A stretch of DNA of 64,000 nt from Hyperoplus lanceolatus (lineage: Eukaryota > Chordata > Actinopteri > Uranoscopiformes > Ammodytidae). The notes under the pieces are model-generated. The model was not told the DNA's origin. It saw only the letters and a program-made list of their open reading frames with translations, and searched no databases. Positions 4,009 to 61,580 of the stretch are shown in pieces. The stretch spans positions 14,101,501-14,165,500 of the forward strand of contig CM049416.1 in the NCBI GenBank assembly GCA_026929865.2, given 5' to 3'. The first letter of the stretch is position 1. The number at the start of each line of letters is the position of its first letter. The translations under genes and the position numbers were made by a program.

Positions 4009-4085
4009 CATCGAGAGCAAGCATGAAGTAACCATCCTCAGTGGACTCAACGAATTTGTAGTGAAGTTTTTCGGGCCACAAGGAA
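4009..4085 (+). CDS. ube2h: UBE2H exon 2
   Basis: Acceptor CCTTACAG ends at 4008; donor GTAAGT begins at 4086. It encodes [20 protein letters not shown] then FGPQG. It starts with the last base of the Leu18 codon and ends one base into Thr44, so it leaves phase 1 for exon 3. Confidence 0.95.
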
Positions 4086-4739
4086 GTAAGTGTTTGTGTT
4101 TGTTTATCTCAATGCTGTTAGAAAACTGTTAATCGGACCACATGTAATGTTTAGTTAAACCCTAACCAGAGCTTAAAGTGCCTTGATATTAACAGAATGT
4201 GTGCTGAGGGCATCCAGCGCAGCAGACTGTCATTCTCCTGTTTAGAACATAACAAGAGGTTTGTCACGTAGTAGAAAAGTAAAACAGATTGAAAGCAGGC
4301 CTTGAAAGCAGAGGAGCCAGGCTGGAGGAGAATTTGGAGGAGGAGGAGAGTGGCCTCATCAGCAGGAAATACTTCTTTCAATATGTTGTTAGCACTGAAA
4401 CCACTGCTACGTACTCATGCATCAGTTAAAATAGGAAGTGGGTGTTCGACCCTTTTTATGATGCCTCGAAACGATGCCAAAATGTGTGTGTCTGTGTCTG
4501 TCTGTGTGTAGTCATACTGTATGTGTTGGTCAGATTCAGTATGGCACATTGGGGTCCTGTTATACACAGCTATTCTGGGAGAGCACTTCATACTCTCACG
4601 TTCTCATTCTGACCACCTCTTTCATGTCAGTGCATTATTACATGATTTGCAATTTAGTAATTATCCTGGGCTGAGATACTCACACTGCATAAAAAAATCC
4701 TGTCAAATGGAAACAGTGAAGTGGTATATGTGTAGCTAA

Positions 4740-4785
<46 letters not shown>

Positions 4786-7700
4786 TCGAAATTGATATAA
4801 TGTAAGATAGAGTGAAAGTCTCTCCTTCGTCCTCGACAGTGTTTAGTCATTATTTCTCTCTCATTTTCCAGCACCGTACGAGGGAGGCGTGTGGAAGGTG
4901 CGAGTAGATCTTCCTGACAAATACCCTTTCAAATCGCCATCAATAGGTGGGGGCTCTCTTCTATTACACCAAGGATATAGGATCACATTTGTTTGGGTTC
5001 CACTTCACTTTATTTATTTTCTCACGTTGTCCTCATCTCTACCTTGCTTTTTTTCTCAGGATTCATGAACAAGATTTTTCATCCCAACATTGACGAAGCG
5101 TAAGTTCATTTCGGTCAGGTTTTTTTTTTCTGTTACTTTGAGGCAACAGTGCATTGTAGACTATGGGGGTTTTGGTCCCTAACTCTCATATGAATGCCAT
5201 GGTGTGTTGAACCTTACCTCATTCAATGAGATTTAATTGACGTTTATTATGACGTCATGTAAACAGCTGGCCTATCATGTTGTGAACAAAAAAAAAAATT
5301 GGCTGATTCATTCATATTTTTAAATGTATTCTGTATTGCCTCTTAAGGTTCTACGGCTTTGAAATAGTGAAGAAATTCAACCTACTTTTTTTGTATTACA
5401 CTCTTAACTTTTATAGAAGCCACCAAATTTAGCTAACAGCTTCAAAATCACACTTCTATTGATCTTGGCCAAGTTCTTTGTGACACCGGGCCCTTTAATC
5501 CATTGCACAGAGTCTAAATCCTCTGTAGCACAGCTTTACATGTGACATTTCAATTTAACATACCGGTAAAGTGTGTTCATATAAATGTGACTTAAAAATC
5601 TTTCTGTCATAGATCTGTGGTTAACAATATTTACCCAGCTAACAAGAACAGACAGCGGTGTTTATGTCTCGCCTCAATTATTCAAACTACTTTAAGTTAT
5701 AAAGTTATACTGTATATTTACCAGTGACAAAATACCATTTGAATGCAACCACCTGATATGTCAGACCTGGTCACATGTTACTTTACAAGAATCTCCTACA
5801 CTCTCCATTAAACACAAGCAAAAGAATGCTGCATTTCTGAGCAACAGTTGCAAATGGACTGGCTTTGTTTGAACTGTTGACAAACTCAGCAAAAATTAGA
5901 AGGGGGATTGAAAGGCACACGTTTGCTGTACCCCTCTAACTCTTGTGTTTTCTTCTTGTTTTTCCCCAGTTCAGGGACGGTGTGCTTAGATGTCATCAAC
6001 CAGACATGGACAGCCCTTTATGGTGAGTATCCCCTGCTGCGTATGTGGCCGTATTAAGTTTCCGCACTGGGGTCTGTGTGATGATGAGAAAAAAACTTGA
6101 CACAGTGCCATCGGCATGGGTAAAAAAAATAAAATAAAAAAGTGACTGCAGGCCAGGGCCCCTATCTAGCAAAGTATGGGCACAATTGACCGTAATCTAC
6201 TTAGCGGTGGGGGAGGACGTAAACACTAATGAGGTAACACCCTCAACCAGAGAGGTCAGAATACATTCACCTTCAACAGGAATGATTTACTGTCTGTCAG
6301 CTGGGTGAGACGCCGACATGCTCGCATAGTCTCGATGGCAGCGATTGTTTCTCACCCAGTTGCTCATCTCACTGTCACAGTTCCTCTCTTTCTCTCTGTC
6401 TGTCTCTCTCTCTCTCTCTCTCTGTCTCTCTTTCTCTCTCTGTCTCTCTCTCTCGCTCCATGTCCCTGTGCCCTTCTCCCCATTTCCACATTAATTTCTC
6501 GTAACAGCCCCTCCACAGGGCTACGATAGCCTAGTAGCAATATAAATGCCATCACAGTAATATCCCTAGCAGATTTGACGGCATCCGTTTCTATTTATTG
6601 TCAATGGTGTTGTTGATATTACGGCGTAAATAGTATTAAAGCAACTTCAGAATTCAGAATTATTTCTTGATTCCAATGCGTTGATGTGAAGAGGAGAACA
6701 TTTGCAAATGAACGTGAACGCTATCAATGACTCAATTGAGGCTTGGCCTGCATTTGTCTACAATCAAGTCAAACCAGAATACAGCTTGTGTTATTTTTAC
6801 CTTTTGTTTCTACTCGTATCAAAAAAATGCTGTGGTTTGTTATGTGGCGAGTGTTTAAAAGAAAGCAAATCAGATTGTACAAACATAGGAGAGCATAGGC
6901 CAATCAACCACAGTGCAAGAGTGACCAATACAACTGATTAAACCAGCCAAACATGATAAATGCTGTCACAATAGTCTTGCAAAGCCAGACCAAACTACAG
7001 CAAGTAGTATGGGGAGTTACCCTGGTAGCCGATGTATGCGCTCATTGACGCTGGCAAAACCAGGGAAGCCAGACTACAATAGACTTGTGGCTAAGTGTCC
7101 CCAACTGGAGTGGACCCGAGGGTGACACCTAGGAGACAAGAGCAGAATTGCATGTTTTTTGTACTAGGCCTCAGCTCAAAGAGAAATCTAAAGGCCTGCT
7201 AGCAAAGCAAAGAGCTATTGAAAGGGATTAGTGTCTATTTGAGGCTGAGGGTTTTACATTAGTGATGTTGTTGGTAGAATATAGTATCATATGTCTTTGA
7301 TCCCTTTTTTTATACCGCGATCACCGACTAATGTGTGTGTACATTGATTATAAGCTTTCCTGTCAGCCGATCAACAGACGCGGCGGTTTTATATTTAACA
7401 TTAAATTTAGTTCATTGGATTTCCCCCAGATTATGTAACTCTCTACTTACGTATTGCTTTCATTTTGTTAAAGCTGTAATCCGTTGTCCTCTTTCTCAGA
7501 TCTGACCAACATCTTTGAGTCGTTCCTACCCCAGCTGCTGGCTTACCCCAACCCCATCGACCCCCTGAATGGAGACGCAGCTGCCATGTACCTTCACAGG
7601 CCAGAGGAGTACAAGCAGAAAATCAAAGGTTCAACCCTTTATCCGTATCTGTTGGGTCGCTTTTTAGATATTTAAAGGTGCAGTGTGTAATATCTGAATA

Positions 7701-7950
7701 TTTAGTGGCGAAAGTTCTAGAATCCAACGCTCCCTGGGTAACCCCACCACTTTCGAATAATAACACAAGCTACAGTGGCCTTCATGGACAATAAGCTAGT
7801 TACATACGATGGCATCATCCATCCGTGACTCAAGTTTTTCCACAATATCAAGTGATGAAGTGAAGATGTATTTAGTTATTTATTCTATAGTGCTTCTTCT
7901 TCGTCTAGGTGCAACGGGTGCATTTTTCCAGCACATTCACTTTTAAAAGG

Positions 7951-8016
<66 letters not shown>

Positions 8017-8545
8017 GATTGGATTTATATAGCGCTTTTCAAGGCACTCAAAGCATTGGCCAACCCGCTCTACCACCTGAGCCACGGTTGCCCTATGGCC
8101 ATTAAGTTTGTCCATTCTGTTCTACTGTAGAATCATGACGGTGCAAAATGGCGGGCCTCCATGGTGGCAAGCCCTGCTCTTATTTAGCTATACAAGGCTC
8201 ATTCTAAGGAAATAAACGAAAAACCTACTTTTATTTCCATTTTATACCAAGTCTGTTCTGAAAAATAGAAATACATTCTACACACTACACCTTTAAGTTA
8301 TTTTCCCATATCTATTACACTGGCAAAATATATAACTCTGATCACTGTTTATTACCTGCGAGTGTTGGCCGTCATTTCCCATCTGACCCTGCCCGCCTTT
8401 CTGTTTCTTTCCCTCCACAGAGTACATCCAGAAATATGCAACAGAGGAGGCTTTGAAGGAGCAGGAAGAAGGGCAAGGGGACTCTTCATCTGAAAGCTCC
8501 ATGTCTGATTTCTCAGAGGACGAGGCCCAGGACATGGAGTTGTAG
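4009..8545 (+). CDS. ube2h: UBE2H, ubiquitin-conjugating enzyme E2 H (partial: exons 2-7, exon 1 outside window)
   Basis: E2 enzyme that takes ubiquitin from E1 as a thioester and passes it to substrates; in vertebrates UBE2H is the E2 of the CTLH/MAEA ligase, is strongly expressed in erythroid cells, and ubiquitinates histones in vitro. The CDS is join(4009..4085, 4872..4946, 5060..5099, 5970..6022, 7500..7628, 8421..8545); every junction has GT-AG and the phases close. Using human numbering from memory, exon 2 starts at Ile19. The UBC fold is intact: HPN at 76-78, catalytic Cys87 in [13 protein letters not shown], then the conserved [18 protein letters not shown] segment. The acidic Ser/Glu tail ends [13 protein letters not shown]. 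Apparent differences from human are Gly29 to Ser, Tyr39 to Phe, and a Gln in the tail. Exon 1 (about 18 residues) is not in the window, so 1-4008 should be intron 1. The gene converges on NRF1. Identity is very secure. Confidence 0.97.
4743..4782. repeat. (TC)n microsatellite near exon 3 acceptor
   Basis: Twenty TC units ending 90 bp before UBE2H exon 3, in a region that may reinforce the polypyrimidine signal. Confidence 0.95.
4872..4946 (+). CDS. ube2h: UBE2H exon 3
   Basis: Acceptor TTTTCCAG, preceded by a (TC)n tract 90 bp upstream; donor GTGGGG at 4947. It encodes [20 protein letters not shown] then KSPSI, the central beta strands of the UBC fold. Confidence 0.95.
5060..5099 (+). CDS. 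ube2h: UBE2H exon 4
   Basis: A 40-bp micro-exon after a 113-bp intron. Acceptor TTTTCTCAG; donor GTAAGT at 5100. It encodes [14 protein letters not shown], which includes the HPN motif whose Asn stabilises the E2 thioester transition state. Confidence 0.95.
5970..6022 (+). CDS. ube2h: UBE2H exon 5 (catalytic cysteine)
   Basis: Acceptor TTTCCCCAG; donor GTGAGT at 6023. It encodes [17 protein letters not shown] with the active-site Cys87. Confidence 0.95.
6386..6460. repeat. (TC)n-rich low-complexity tract in UBE2H intron 5
   Basis: Imperfect TC/TCTG repeat. The remainder of the 6023-7499 intron shows nothing recognisable. Confidence 0.9.
7500..7628 (+). CDS. ube2h: UBE2H exon 6
   Basis: Acceptor TTTCTCAG; donor GTTCAA at 7629, a weaker but usable site. 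It encodes [20 protein letters not shown] through [20 protein letters not shown] to KIK. The following intron contains a MITE that starts 44 bp after the donor. Confidence 0.95.
7951..8014. repeat. (AAT)n microsatellite, probable A-rich SINE tail
   Basis: About 21 ATA/AAT units directly abutting the SINE-like fragment that follows. Confidence 0.95.
8015..8096 (-). mobile_element. Truncated tRNA-derived SINE fragment
   Basis: Read on the minus strand it begins GGGCAACCGTGGCTCAGGTG, a tRNA A-box-like head, runs GTAGAGCGGGTTGGCC, then jumps to a tail containing AAAAGCGCTATATAAATCC. The internal part is deleted. It resembles the SINE at 59,479-59,748 in its head. Confidence 0.6.
8421..8545 (+). 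CDS. ube2h: UBE2H exon 7 (last coding exon)
   Basis: Acceptor CCCTCCACAG. It encodes [20 protein letters not shown] and the acidic tail ending in MEL, with TAG at 8543-8545. Confidence 0.95.
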
Positions 8546-20425: not shown

Positions 20426-23400
20426 GTATGGACTACATTTTATATTTTACTGTTTTTGCTCCAGTTAGACTATAGTTTACTAGGCTTACTGTAGTTTATA
20501 GAGACGCATCAGCGAGAGGGAAGCTGCGCGAGGACATTTCATTCAAAGTGTTTAAAAAAATAAAAAAATAAGGAGGGAGCCTATGATAGTCTGTTAATTT
20601 AAACACAGTTTTGTTTATCTGTTACTCTAATCCATGCAGCGAGGGACTTTTTTAACCATCTTCTTGCCTGAGCCAAAAAAAATCCGAACAGGTTGGATTT
20701 AGTCGGAATTAGAAAAAAATAGTAAAAACATAAAATACGTTAAATGTCAGTCAATAACACTTAAAATAACCATCTTGTAGCTGTTTGTAATATTCTAATA
20801 TGTGTTATTTCGGTGACGCTGGAGGTTGTTGGTATATAGGTCTTTATTACACTGCACCTGCTGCTTTTTTCCTCCCAACTGCAATAAATACCAAGTAGCA
20901 CGGTTTTAGCAGCCTAATCCTATAGATTAATCCTGCGCGTTTGGTGTCTTGTAAATATTTACTCCAACAGAAGATAATCAGGATGGTAGCCTATGCACAA
21001 TACACAATACAATATACAAATTAAATTGGAAACAAAAAATATAACCAAATACTGCATTTTTAATTGCCATACAACTGAAATACCCTAAATAAGAATAAAA
21101 AAGTCACATCAATATAAATTCACTAAATTTAAATATAGGAATTGAATGAAATTACTGGGATTCCCATCTTGTCCTGAATGCGTCTTTTACATTTTTAAAT
21201 ACATTTTTTTTAATAGACCATGCAAGCAAATAGTTCAGGTTTGACTGATAGATAGCCTAATTGAAAATCGTGCTGTGGGATTTAAGAGGAGGTTGTAAAT
21301 CCTCCTGAAATAACCGTGAAGTTGAAACTTGTTTGACTCCCTATTCAGACAAATGGGATTAACTGAAGGGGCTTTGGAGCTGCTTTGAATTAACGGTGAC
21401 AGAGACAAAAGGCAGTCTGGGCCGTGCAATGTTAACATTTCAGTCTTTTTTGGTAAATTCTCATGCTACATTATGATGAGGAGGGGGAATATTGATTAGT
21501 AGGCCTACACTCTCACTGCATTATTTGGATATGAACTGATATTTAAATTAGTGTAATTGTGCAGAATCCCTTAAGATGTATTGATATTACAAATACATTT
21601 TTTTATTAAGGAATAAAGTAGAAATTAATTTGAATTCTTGACAGTGAGAATATAATCTATATTATAACACAAACTGTCATTATTATTCATTTTTTTACTT
21701 ATTAATTATATCCGCTTGAAAATGATCTTCATGAAAAATGGGCGGTTCTAGTTTATTTAGGCTAATGCAGATGGGTTTTTGTATTTTAACAGCTGGCCTT
21801 GATGACACATCAAAGCAGGATGACTTTGTATGTCATTTATTAACCAGATTACTTGTCCAAACAAAAAGGCTTATTTACAGAAGTTTAAGAAATCGATATC
21901 AGGTCAATGTGAACAAACATTCTTTTCAGATAATATTATAAAAAAATCTCGTAGAATAAATAAAAAGGCAAATTCTATTAATGTCTTCTTATGTTATGCC
22001 GCAAATGCATACATACAGAAATTATGAAGTAGTTTTTCCTTTATGGCTGCTGCCGGGGCTCATAAGAAGTCTTATGTTAAAAAAAGCATGCCATAAAAAA
22101 TCTCATGAAGCTCCATTCCCATCAAATTAAGATATGAAAAGGCAAGACGTGGGCAAATCTTTAAAGGACACAGGTTCTTTCTTCACTTGGCTTTTTAGTG
22201 CTATTGATTTCTCCAGGAAATGGCAACGGGAGTCTTGCTCGGGGAGCCATTTGGGCATCTGAAGAATCACTTAGTACATGGTTTGATCGCAGGAATCAAT
22301 GGGAGCTCCGCGCACTGCAGGGCCCAGGGTGAGGGAGATAATGGCTGAAACCAAAGGGTGGGGCGTTTGAGGACCGTCAGCCTCTCCGATTCGGTATTTT
22401 ATCTGCAGTGCATGGATTTGTTTTTGACAACGCGTCCCAAGGTCAGGAGAAGGACTGAAGGTTATCACTCGACTGCACCATTGTGTATCCTAGTTTTTGT
22501 GGACTTCATATCCGCACTGAGAAAGTGGCATTGTAGAGAATGTAATTTTTCTGTGGCTTTTGTATGAAATGGCCGGAAATACCTTTTTTTAAACATTAGT
22601 TGATTTGCTATAATTTCCACATCTGGCTGTAATGGCAGCAATTTTCTGGGATTGGTGTTTTACATTGATGAGTGGACAAAAATGCAACTTGCTTGCTGTA
22701 AATCCAAGCCCAGCTTCAATGGAGCATAATATGTTTTAAAAAAAACCTGTTGGCTGGCTGCTCATTTTACTTCCTGGAGATATTTACTTAACAATCTTGC
22801 TATAGATAATTGGCTTGTCACCACAACAGAGAAGAAAAGAGGGCCTCATCTTGGGTTATCAAATTCAGCCTTTCAAATACGAACATTGATCGAAAAAGAA
22901 AAAAAATCGGCAATGGGCACTATGTCTTGACCATGAAGAACAGTGGCTGGACAATGTAACAATGCTAATCTACATAGAGAATTAAAGGGTCAAGTTTAAG
23001 GTGTCACCCATTTTAGGGGGGCTGGGCAGGACGTTAAGAGATTACCTACAAACCATAAAGGCCCACTTTATACCAGCCTTGTTTCTCAGACATTAACAGG
23101 TTTATAATGTCTCCTCATGGTGTTATCACAAAATAGTAGAATTTATCGTAGAATCATTTTAGTCAGTAGCCTACATTTTTTTGTTCACTGAAATCCAGGG
23201 CATGATTGATTTATTCCTCTTTTATGGTCTGGTCCCGCTATGCAATGCAAAGAGGAAAATCAATCGGCAACATTTTAAAAGATAAATGATCAAGTGTGGA
23301 ATTTTGATGTAGGATGTATGGGCACGATTGTGGAATTCAAGGTTTATGTTGCACCATAATCTTGTAAAAGTCCCTGTTGCTGTGCTGTGAGCTTCAAATG

Positions 23401-23988: not shown

Positions 23989-24068
23989 CTGTTCTGTGTA
24001 TGGCACTGGTAGAATTCACTGTGAGAGCTCACTATCAGTGAATTACCATAGGGCCATAAACAGAGCAG
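23989..24068 (+). ncRNA. mir183: pre-miR-183
   Basis: MicroRNA precursor. The 5p mature form is at 23,999-24,021 and begins TATGGCACTGGTAGAATTC; the 3p arm at 24,038-24,060 begins GTGAATTACCATAGGGCC. The arms pair across a short loop and the stem continues at the base (CTGTTCTG with CAGAGCAG). Sequence matches vertebrate miR-183-5p as I know it. First member of the sensory-organ cluster that acts in hair cells, retina and sensory neurons. It sits on the UBE2H strand between UBE2H and NRF1, as in human. Confidence 0.97.
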
Positions 24069-24251
24069 AGAAAGAACCACTTGATGATGCCCGTCCCTCC
24101 GCCATGGCTTACTGCCTCTGGCTCTCCTATCTCCTGTGCTTGTGGGTGGGGTGAATGTGATGTAATGACTGTGGTGTGGTTGCGTAAACTCCGACATCTC
24201 TCTCTGTCCTGATATGCTTCTGCAGAAAACAGCTGCTTGCATTTGAAGGAC

Positions 24252-24294
24252 CCAGCCAGCCAGCCAGCCAGCCAGCCTGCCTGCCTCTCCTCTT
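24252..24294. repeat. (CCAG)n/(CCTG)n repeat between miR-183 and miR-96
   Basis: Tetranucleotide CCAG repeats passing into CCTGCCTG, 10 bp before the miR-96 hairpin. Length variation here would alter the spacing of the hairpins in the primary transcript. Confidence 0.9.
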
Positions 24295-24297
24295 CTT

Positions 24298-24373
24298 TGC
24301 CCATTTTGGCACTAGCACATTTTTGCTTCTGTATATATACTTTGAGCAATTATGTGTAGTGCCAATATGGGAC
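24298..24373 (+). ncRNA. mir96: pre-miR-96
   Basis: The mature 5p at 24,305-24,327 begins TTTGGCACTAGCACATTTTT; the 3p arm at 24,347-24,368 begins CAATTATGTGTAGTGCC. The two arms form a hairpin with a GTATATATAC-containing loop. Seed TTGGCAC is intact; mutations in the human miR-96 seed cause progressive deafness. Lies 230 bp after miR-183, so one primary transcript is expected. Confidence 0.97.
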
Positions 24374-24786
24374 AAGATAGACTTCCGTCACTTTCGCATC
24401 ATCTTGGACACTCCTATGTATTAGTATAATGCTTTGGTGTCTCTGTGCTTTCGTGTAATTTGGTCTCCAATACATGGCTGTACCAAGAACTCTAAGTGGA
24501 TGTGGATCTACATTTTTAAGACATGCTAGCTCCTATGTGCAACAACACCTCATATGCCAGTCAAACCATGACCTTGAAGAATGATACTAGCACAACAGAG
24601 CCAAATGAATAATCAGTTAATGTTCCTCCCTCTCCATTTAAATAAGGAAACACCTTTTGCTAAAAATGTGAAATTAAGAATCATGCCATATCTTTTTTGC
24701 GGATTTCTTCTGTCAATCTGAATGACCTTACCATAAACCAAGTTCTGTATGTAAGTGGCTCATGTGAGTGTGAAAAAGGCCCAGCA

Positions 24787-24877
24787 GCTCTCTGGTGGTG
24801 TTTGGCAATGGTAGAACTCACACTGGTGAGGTAGATGGATCCGGTGGTTCTAGACTTGCCAACTACTGCTTGAGAGC
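24787..24877 (+). ncRNA. mir182: pre-miR-182
   Basis: The mature 5p starts at 24,801 with TTTGGCAATGGTAGAACTCA; the 3p arm at 24,845-24,865 begins TGGTTCTAGACTTGCC. The base of the stem closes with GCTCTC/GAGAGC. Third member of the cluster, 414 bp after miR-96. The seed TTGGCAA overlaps that of miR-96, so the two share many targets. Confidence 0.97.

Positions 24878-32051: not shown

Positions 32052-48541
<16,490 letters not shown>

Positions 48542-59748: not shown

Positions 59749-61580
<1,832 letters not shown>

Follow-up and report, generated by a model that had tools for sequence, protein, structure and literature searches.

The miR-183/96/182 cluster of Hyperoplus lanceolatus and a second genomic copy

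Does a 64,000-nucleotide stretch of the Hyperoplus lanceolatus genome (hereafter the window, C22:14101501-14165500) carry a complete miR-183/96/182 microRNA cluster in its known vertebrate setting, and is this the only such cluster in the genome? The cluster has been reviewed in PMC4551935, relevant passages of which also mention a human miR-96-like paralogue, miR-1271. Its correct annotation matters because vertebrate sensory cells depend on it to an important degree and because mutations in the miR-96 seed cause hearing loss (PMC6303392).

Three hairpins between UBE2H and NRF1

An Rfam scan of the whole window yielded exactly three matches at or above the gathering score, all on the + strand, each spanning its full model and arranged in the order 183-96-182 within a few kb (23992-24870):

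23992-24065, + strand: pre-miR-183 hairpin (RF00663, 96.4 bits vs. cut-off 53; miR-183-5p starts at 23999)
24297-24374, + strand: pre-miR-96 hairpin (RF00669, 100.3 bits vs. cut-off 65; miR-96-5p starts at 24305)
24794-24870, + strand: pre-miR-182 hairpin (RF00702, 99.8 bits vs. cut-off 71; miR-182-5p starts at 24801)

An earlier note, made from the letters of this DNA, had read here three complete hairpins in this order and on this strand, with intact 5p seeds and pairing 3p arms, and had proposed an Rfam search and folding of each hairpin as checks. The full-length matches, well above their cut-offs, bear out the first part of this reading. The window's + strand contains each of the mature 5p strings of miR-183, miR-96 and miR-182 (miR-182 taken to 22 nt), which are the same as in human, exactly once; they begin at 23999, 24305 and 24801, the very starts named before, and the seeds are thus intact. 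Folded together with 6 to 12 flanking bases and compared with 200 dinucleotide-preserving shuffles each, the hairpins reached -40.3 kcal/mol (z -5.7) for pre-miR-183, -40.0 kcal/mol (z -9.0) for pre-miR-96 and -42.2 kcal/mol (z -4.7) for pre-miR-182, with 0/200 shuffles as good in each case, in agreement with the claimed pairing of the 3p arms. A search of the window with ARAGORN found no tRNA genes.

The flanking genes were placed as follows:

4010-8542, + strand: UBE2H, six exons (exons 2-7 by our count), with their peptides located
4010-4084, 4877-4948, 5059-5100, 5971-6021, 7499-7627 and 8420-8542, + strand: the UBE2H exons, located by peptides
32052-47518, - strand: NRF1; the range runs from its stop codon (32052-32054) as far as the first DNA-binding-domain piece

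UBE2H is represented by six peptide-bearing open reading frames (ORFs) on the + strand between 3998 and 8542, its first exon lying upstream of the window at C22:14090586; the peptide matches the UQ_con Pfam domain and, as its best solved structure, ubiquitin-conjugating enzyme E2 H (1.2e-98). The NRF1 exons extend on the - strand from the stop to at least 47.5 kb and include five pieces of the DNA-binding domain (PF10491) at 40167-47518, one of which (47387-47518) is reported with two internal stops, perhaps a match that ran across a splice site. An ORF at 32055-32243 we take, by its motifs, to be the NRF1 C terminus, and the ORF at 48106-48438, for which no Pfam match was found, is presumably the N-terminal coding part. 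With UBE2H on the + strand and NRF1 downstream on the - strand, the two genes are convergent, and the cluster lies between them as the earlier note had it, sharing the direction of UBE2H, whose stop lies 15.4 kb before it; the stop of NRF1 is about 7 kb away.

The same note had equated this arrangement with human 7q32, where we take NRF1 to be likewise convergent with UBE2H. For the flanks this equation agrees with the relevant passages of PMC5580467, in which NRF1 and UBE2H flank the human cluster at 7q32.2, with UBE2H as the immediate upstream neighbor on the cluster's own strand. Human MIR183/MIR96/MIR182 thus resemble the window in order, in strand relation to UBE2H and in the NRF1 flank (PMC4551935, PMC5580467, in their descriptions of the locus), whereas mir-96 and mir-182 are separated by 419 bases here vs. 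4.2 kb in human (PMC4551935, same description). The zebrafish mir-183/96/182 genes on chromosome 4, as the pertinent parts of PMC6635406 and PMC12563060 describe them, represent the same cluster. Since this is a textbook vertebrate cluster, the locus in itself is ordinary.

The surrounding stretch was surveyed for protein genes by scanning the 16 longest stop-to-stop ORFs lying wholly within 8.6-31.9 kb (at least 101 aa each, taken from the 40 longest listed for the window). None of the 16 has a Pfam match over the curated cut-off, a DUF3522 match (E 0.0066, below cut-off) being taken as chance, and the stretch is therefore empty of recognised protein genes at the level of ORFs of at least 101 aa. 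Elsewhere in the window, the NRF1 span harbors remains of Tc1/mariner transposase in both orientations at 44153-45238 (HTH_Tnp_Tc3_2, DDE_3), which look like two partial copies facing each other, and long CA/TG microsatellite runs at 511-813, 37052-37378 and 61100-61486 give rise to spurious long ORFs.

A second complete cluster on C6

Searching the whole genome (806,742,258 bases in 527 contigs) with the same Rfam models placed each family above the cut-off at two loci, one in the window and one on contig C6, among the best 59 of 99,091 (mir-183), 69 of 148,340 (mir-96) and 58 of 37,216 (mir-182) candidates that were scored; a third, weak copy may lie beyond these best-scored candidates. The remaining matches, two each for mir-183 and mir-96, represent the reverse strand of these loci and fall below the cut-off. 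The second cluster is complete, on one strand and in the same order as in the window:

C6:13778234-13778307, - strand: second mir-183 (Rfam, 94.9 bits)
C6:13778057-13778134, - strand: second mir-96 (Rfam, 78.9 bits)
C6:13777691-13777767, - strand: second mir-182 (Rfam, 82.7 bits)

Ungapped identity between the two copies amounts to 71/74 bases for mir-183, 64/78 for mir-96 and 66/77 for mir-182, and all three substitutions in mir-183, like 11 of the 14 in mir-96, fall within the terminal loop region. The miR-183-5p and miR-96-5p sequences are letter-identical in both clusters, nucleotide 22 is the one difference in miR-182-5p, and two letters separate the assumed miR-96-3p strands. Neither the spacers between the hairpins nor the compared downstream stretches gave a blastn match between the window and C6. 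The C6 hairpins for mir-183, mir-96 and mir-182 fold at -31.0, -38.6 and -33.1 kcal/mol, with 1, 0 and 11 of 200 mononucleotide shuffles, respectively, being as good; by this test the mir-182 fold (a modest z of -1.8) is not outstanding. A CNNC processing motif 16-18 bases past the assumed 3p ends occurs in 3/3 window and 1/3 C6 hairpins, an uncontrolled count to which we give no weight.

The existence of two copies could leave one of them free to decay, and the window hairpins could in principle be decayed or unprocessed relics with C6 as the working copy. We consider this highly improbable, as the window hairpins outscore their C6 counterparts throughout (96.4 vs. 94.9, 100.3 vs. 78.9 and 99.8 vs. 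82.7 bits), fold well and retain intact mature 5p sequences.

Age and origin of the duplication

The duplication extends beyond the hairpins. A UBE2H copy lies upstream of the second cluster in the same orientation (6/6 queried exon ORFs were found, as well as the first exon), with its stop ~6.5 kb before the second mir-183. The two UBE2H copies differ at 36/64 four-fold sites and show a dN of about 0.03 over 164 codons with a dS of 2.1 (NG86) or 1.1 (YN00), and with such a dS the cluster duplication is old. Further upstream, ten collinear blastn blocks pair C22:14071792-14077642 with C6. This collinearity rests on the blastn matches, after dropping those that broke the order; tblastx collinearity was not used because of inflated E-values. 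Within the collinear region, one C6 ORF is Kelch-like (1.3e-06, below the Pfam profile cut-off), which we take to be KLHDC10, a UBE2H neighbor in human, and another pair is Na/Ca-exchanger-like (0.00086, below the Pfam cut-off, with the peptide still read from tblastx). C22 and C6 thus share a collinear duplicated block with ancient divergence, as is characteristic of ohnologues.

This shared block does not appear to include a second NRF1. Three NRF1 queries from the window had no match at E 0.01 in 70 kb around the C6 cluster (including 40 kb downstream), and a genome search with PF10491, in which 5/5 candidates were scored, placed NRF1 only on C22. Downstream of the second cluster, in the position expected for NRF1, C6:13760509-13761444 holds a coding sequence resembling muscarinic acetylcholine receptors M2/M4. 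A separate observation concerns C22:14092929-14093536, between UBE2H exons 1 and 2, where 608 bases are 98% identical to a C6 site preceding exon 1 of UBE2H; this stretch, far more alike than the surrounding genes, is probably a recently moved transposable element.

The near identity of the mature sequences might also suggest that the segment was duplicated recently, or that haplotypes of a single locus were left uncollapsed, but the spacers lack a blastn match, the downstream flank differs in having the muscarinic receptor-like sequence instead of NRF1, the synonymous divergence of UBE2H (the sole gene measured) is high, with dS above 1, and the two copies reside on separate contigs of 25.6 and 38.2 Mb. 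A recent origin of this kind is, in our estimate, scarcely credible. Overall, the window almost certainly holds the orthologous fish miR-183/96/182 cluster, which would form one transcript and represents one of two ancient duplicates.

Both clusters most likely derive from the teleost genome duplication, which is the simplest source because the human and zebrafish clusters are described as single. The second cluster sets Hyperoplus apart from human, for which the relevant passages of PMC4551935 describe one cluster, and the two complete clusters contrast with zebrafish, for which the corresponding passages of PMC6635406 report no further cluster paralogs and argue genomic non-redundancy from the single copy. 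A duplication older than teleosts (early vertebrate 2R) would require extra losses in view of these single clusters (PMC4551935, PMC6635406, same passages); the UBE2H dS, being near saturation, leaves room for such an age, since it cannot date the duplication closely. We view the older date as unlikely.

Signs of duplicate miR-183 genes in other fish are already found in print. For Asian seabass, the passages of PMC3055879 on these microRNAs name miR-183-1 and miR-183-2, both eye-specific, which may not be two genes because end-shifted clones are mentioned there as well; for pikeperch, the relevant part of PMC10778745 includes slu-mir-183-1-2-5p, with suffixes that mark identical matures from different loci. 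As in Hyperoplus, the names in both species point to duplicate miR-183 genes.

A conserved upstream block and the retention of both clusters

When the intergenic DNA between UBE2H and miR-183 was compared across both copies, hairpins excluded, one clear match emerged:

22190-22274, no strand assigned: candidate conserved non-coding element, pairing with C6:13778780-13778864

The block is 80% identical over 86 columns (72.5 bits, E 2.7e-14) and is situated 1725 bases from miR-183-5p in the window (about 1.7 kb upstream) and 480 bases from it on C6. For comparison, 30 C6 segments of the same length, placed at random downstream of the cluster and in part overlapping, gave at best 34.6 bits, the opposite strand gave 29.2 bits, and the reversed sequence had no match at E 1. 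A second upstream match of 34.6 bits was dropped, as it equals this best chance level. The earlier description of the intergenic region as otherwise empty therefore stands for recognised protein genes (16 longest ORFs) but not for conserved non-coding sequence.

Several other identities for the block were considered. Neither strand folds more stably than its shuffles (z 0.56, 0.16), which speaks against another hairpin gene, and a single-base gap in the two-copy alignment makes a coding exon unlikely. As to a common repeat, 22150-22310 searched against the genome matched nowhere but at its own position; this tells against close copies only, the search being blind at 80% identity since it missed the C6 partner too. 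A conserved E-box pair was likewise rejected, only one motif (CATTTG) being kept in the C6 copy. The block is therefore taken as a candidate enhancer or promoter-proximal element. In human, the relevant passages of PMC5580467 report start sites at 5.0-6.9 kb upstream of miR-183, farther away than the Hyperoplus block at ~1.7 kb.

While the three hairpins, their folds, their synteny and their conservation are direct observations, the transcript, processing, targets and tissue are inferred by analogy with the known family. On that model, transcription by Pol II would start at a promoter upstream of miR-183 and yield a single RNA bearing all three hairpins, which Drosha and Dicer would excise. 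The three 5p strands, alike in their seeds, would then repress overlapping sets of targets in sensory cells, photoreceptors and hair cells among them. Both duplicates, having been kept complete, would most likely still act on common targets, with expression perhaps divided between them. A more specific version, which we put forward tentatively as possible rather than probable, holds that both clusters are active with divided sensory expression, partly via the element kept at 22190-22274 and C6:13778780-13778864. In this version, the two-letter difference in miR-96-3p, one letter of which probably lies in the seed, would give the passenger strands partly different targets, and the loss of the NRF1 duplicate would mean that the cluster itself was what selection retained.

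What the second cluster, the lack of a second NRF1 match and the shared upstream block add to knowledge of this family is modest. Fish with two clusters may provide a natural setting in which to examine dosage and division of labor, and the shared upstream block offers a short candidate promoter or enhancer that is open to testing.
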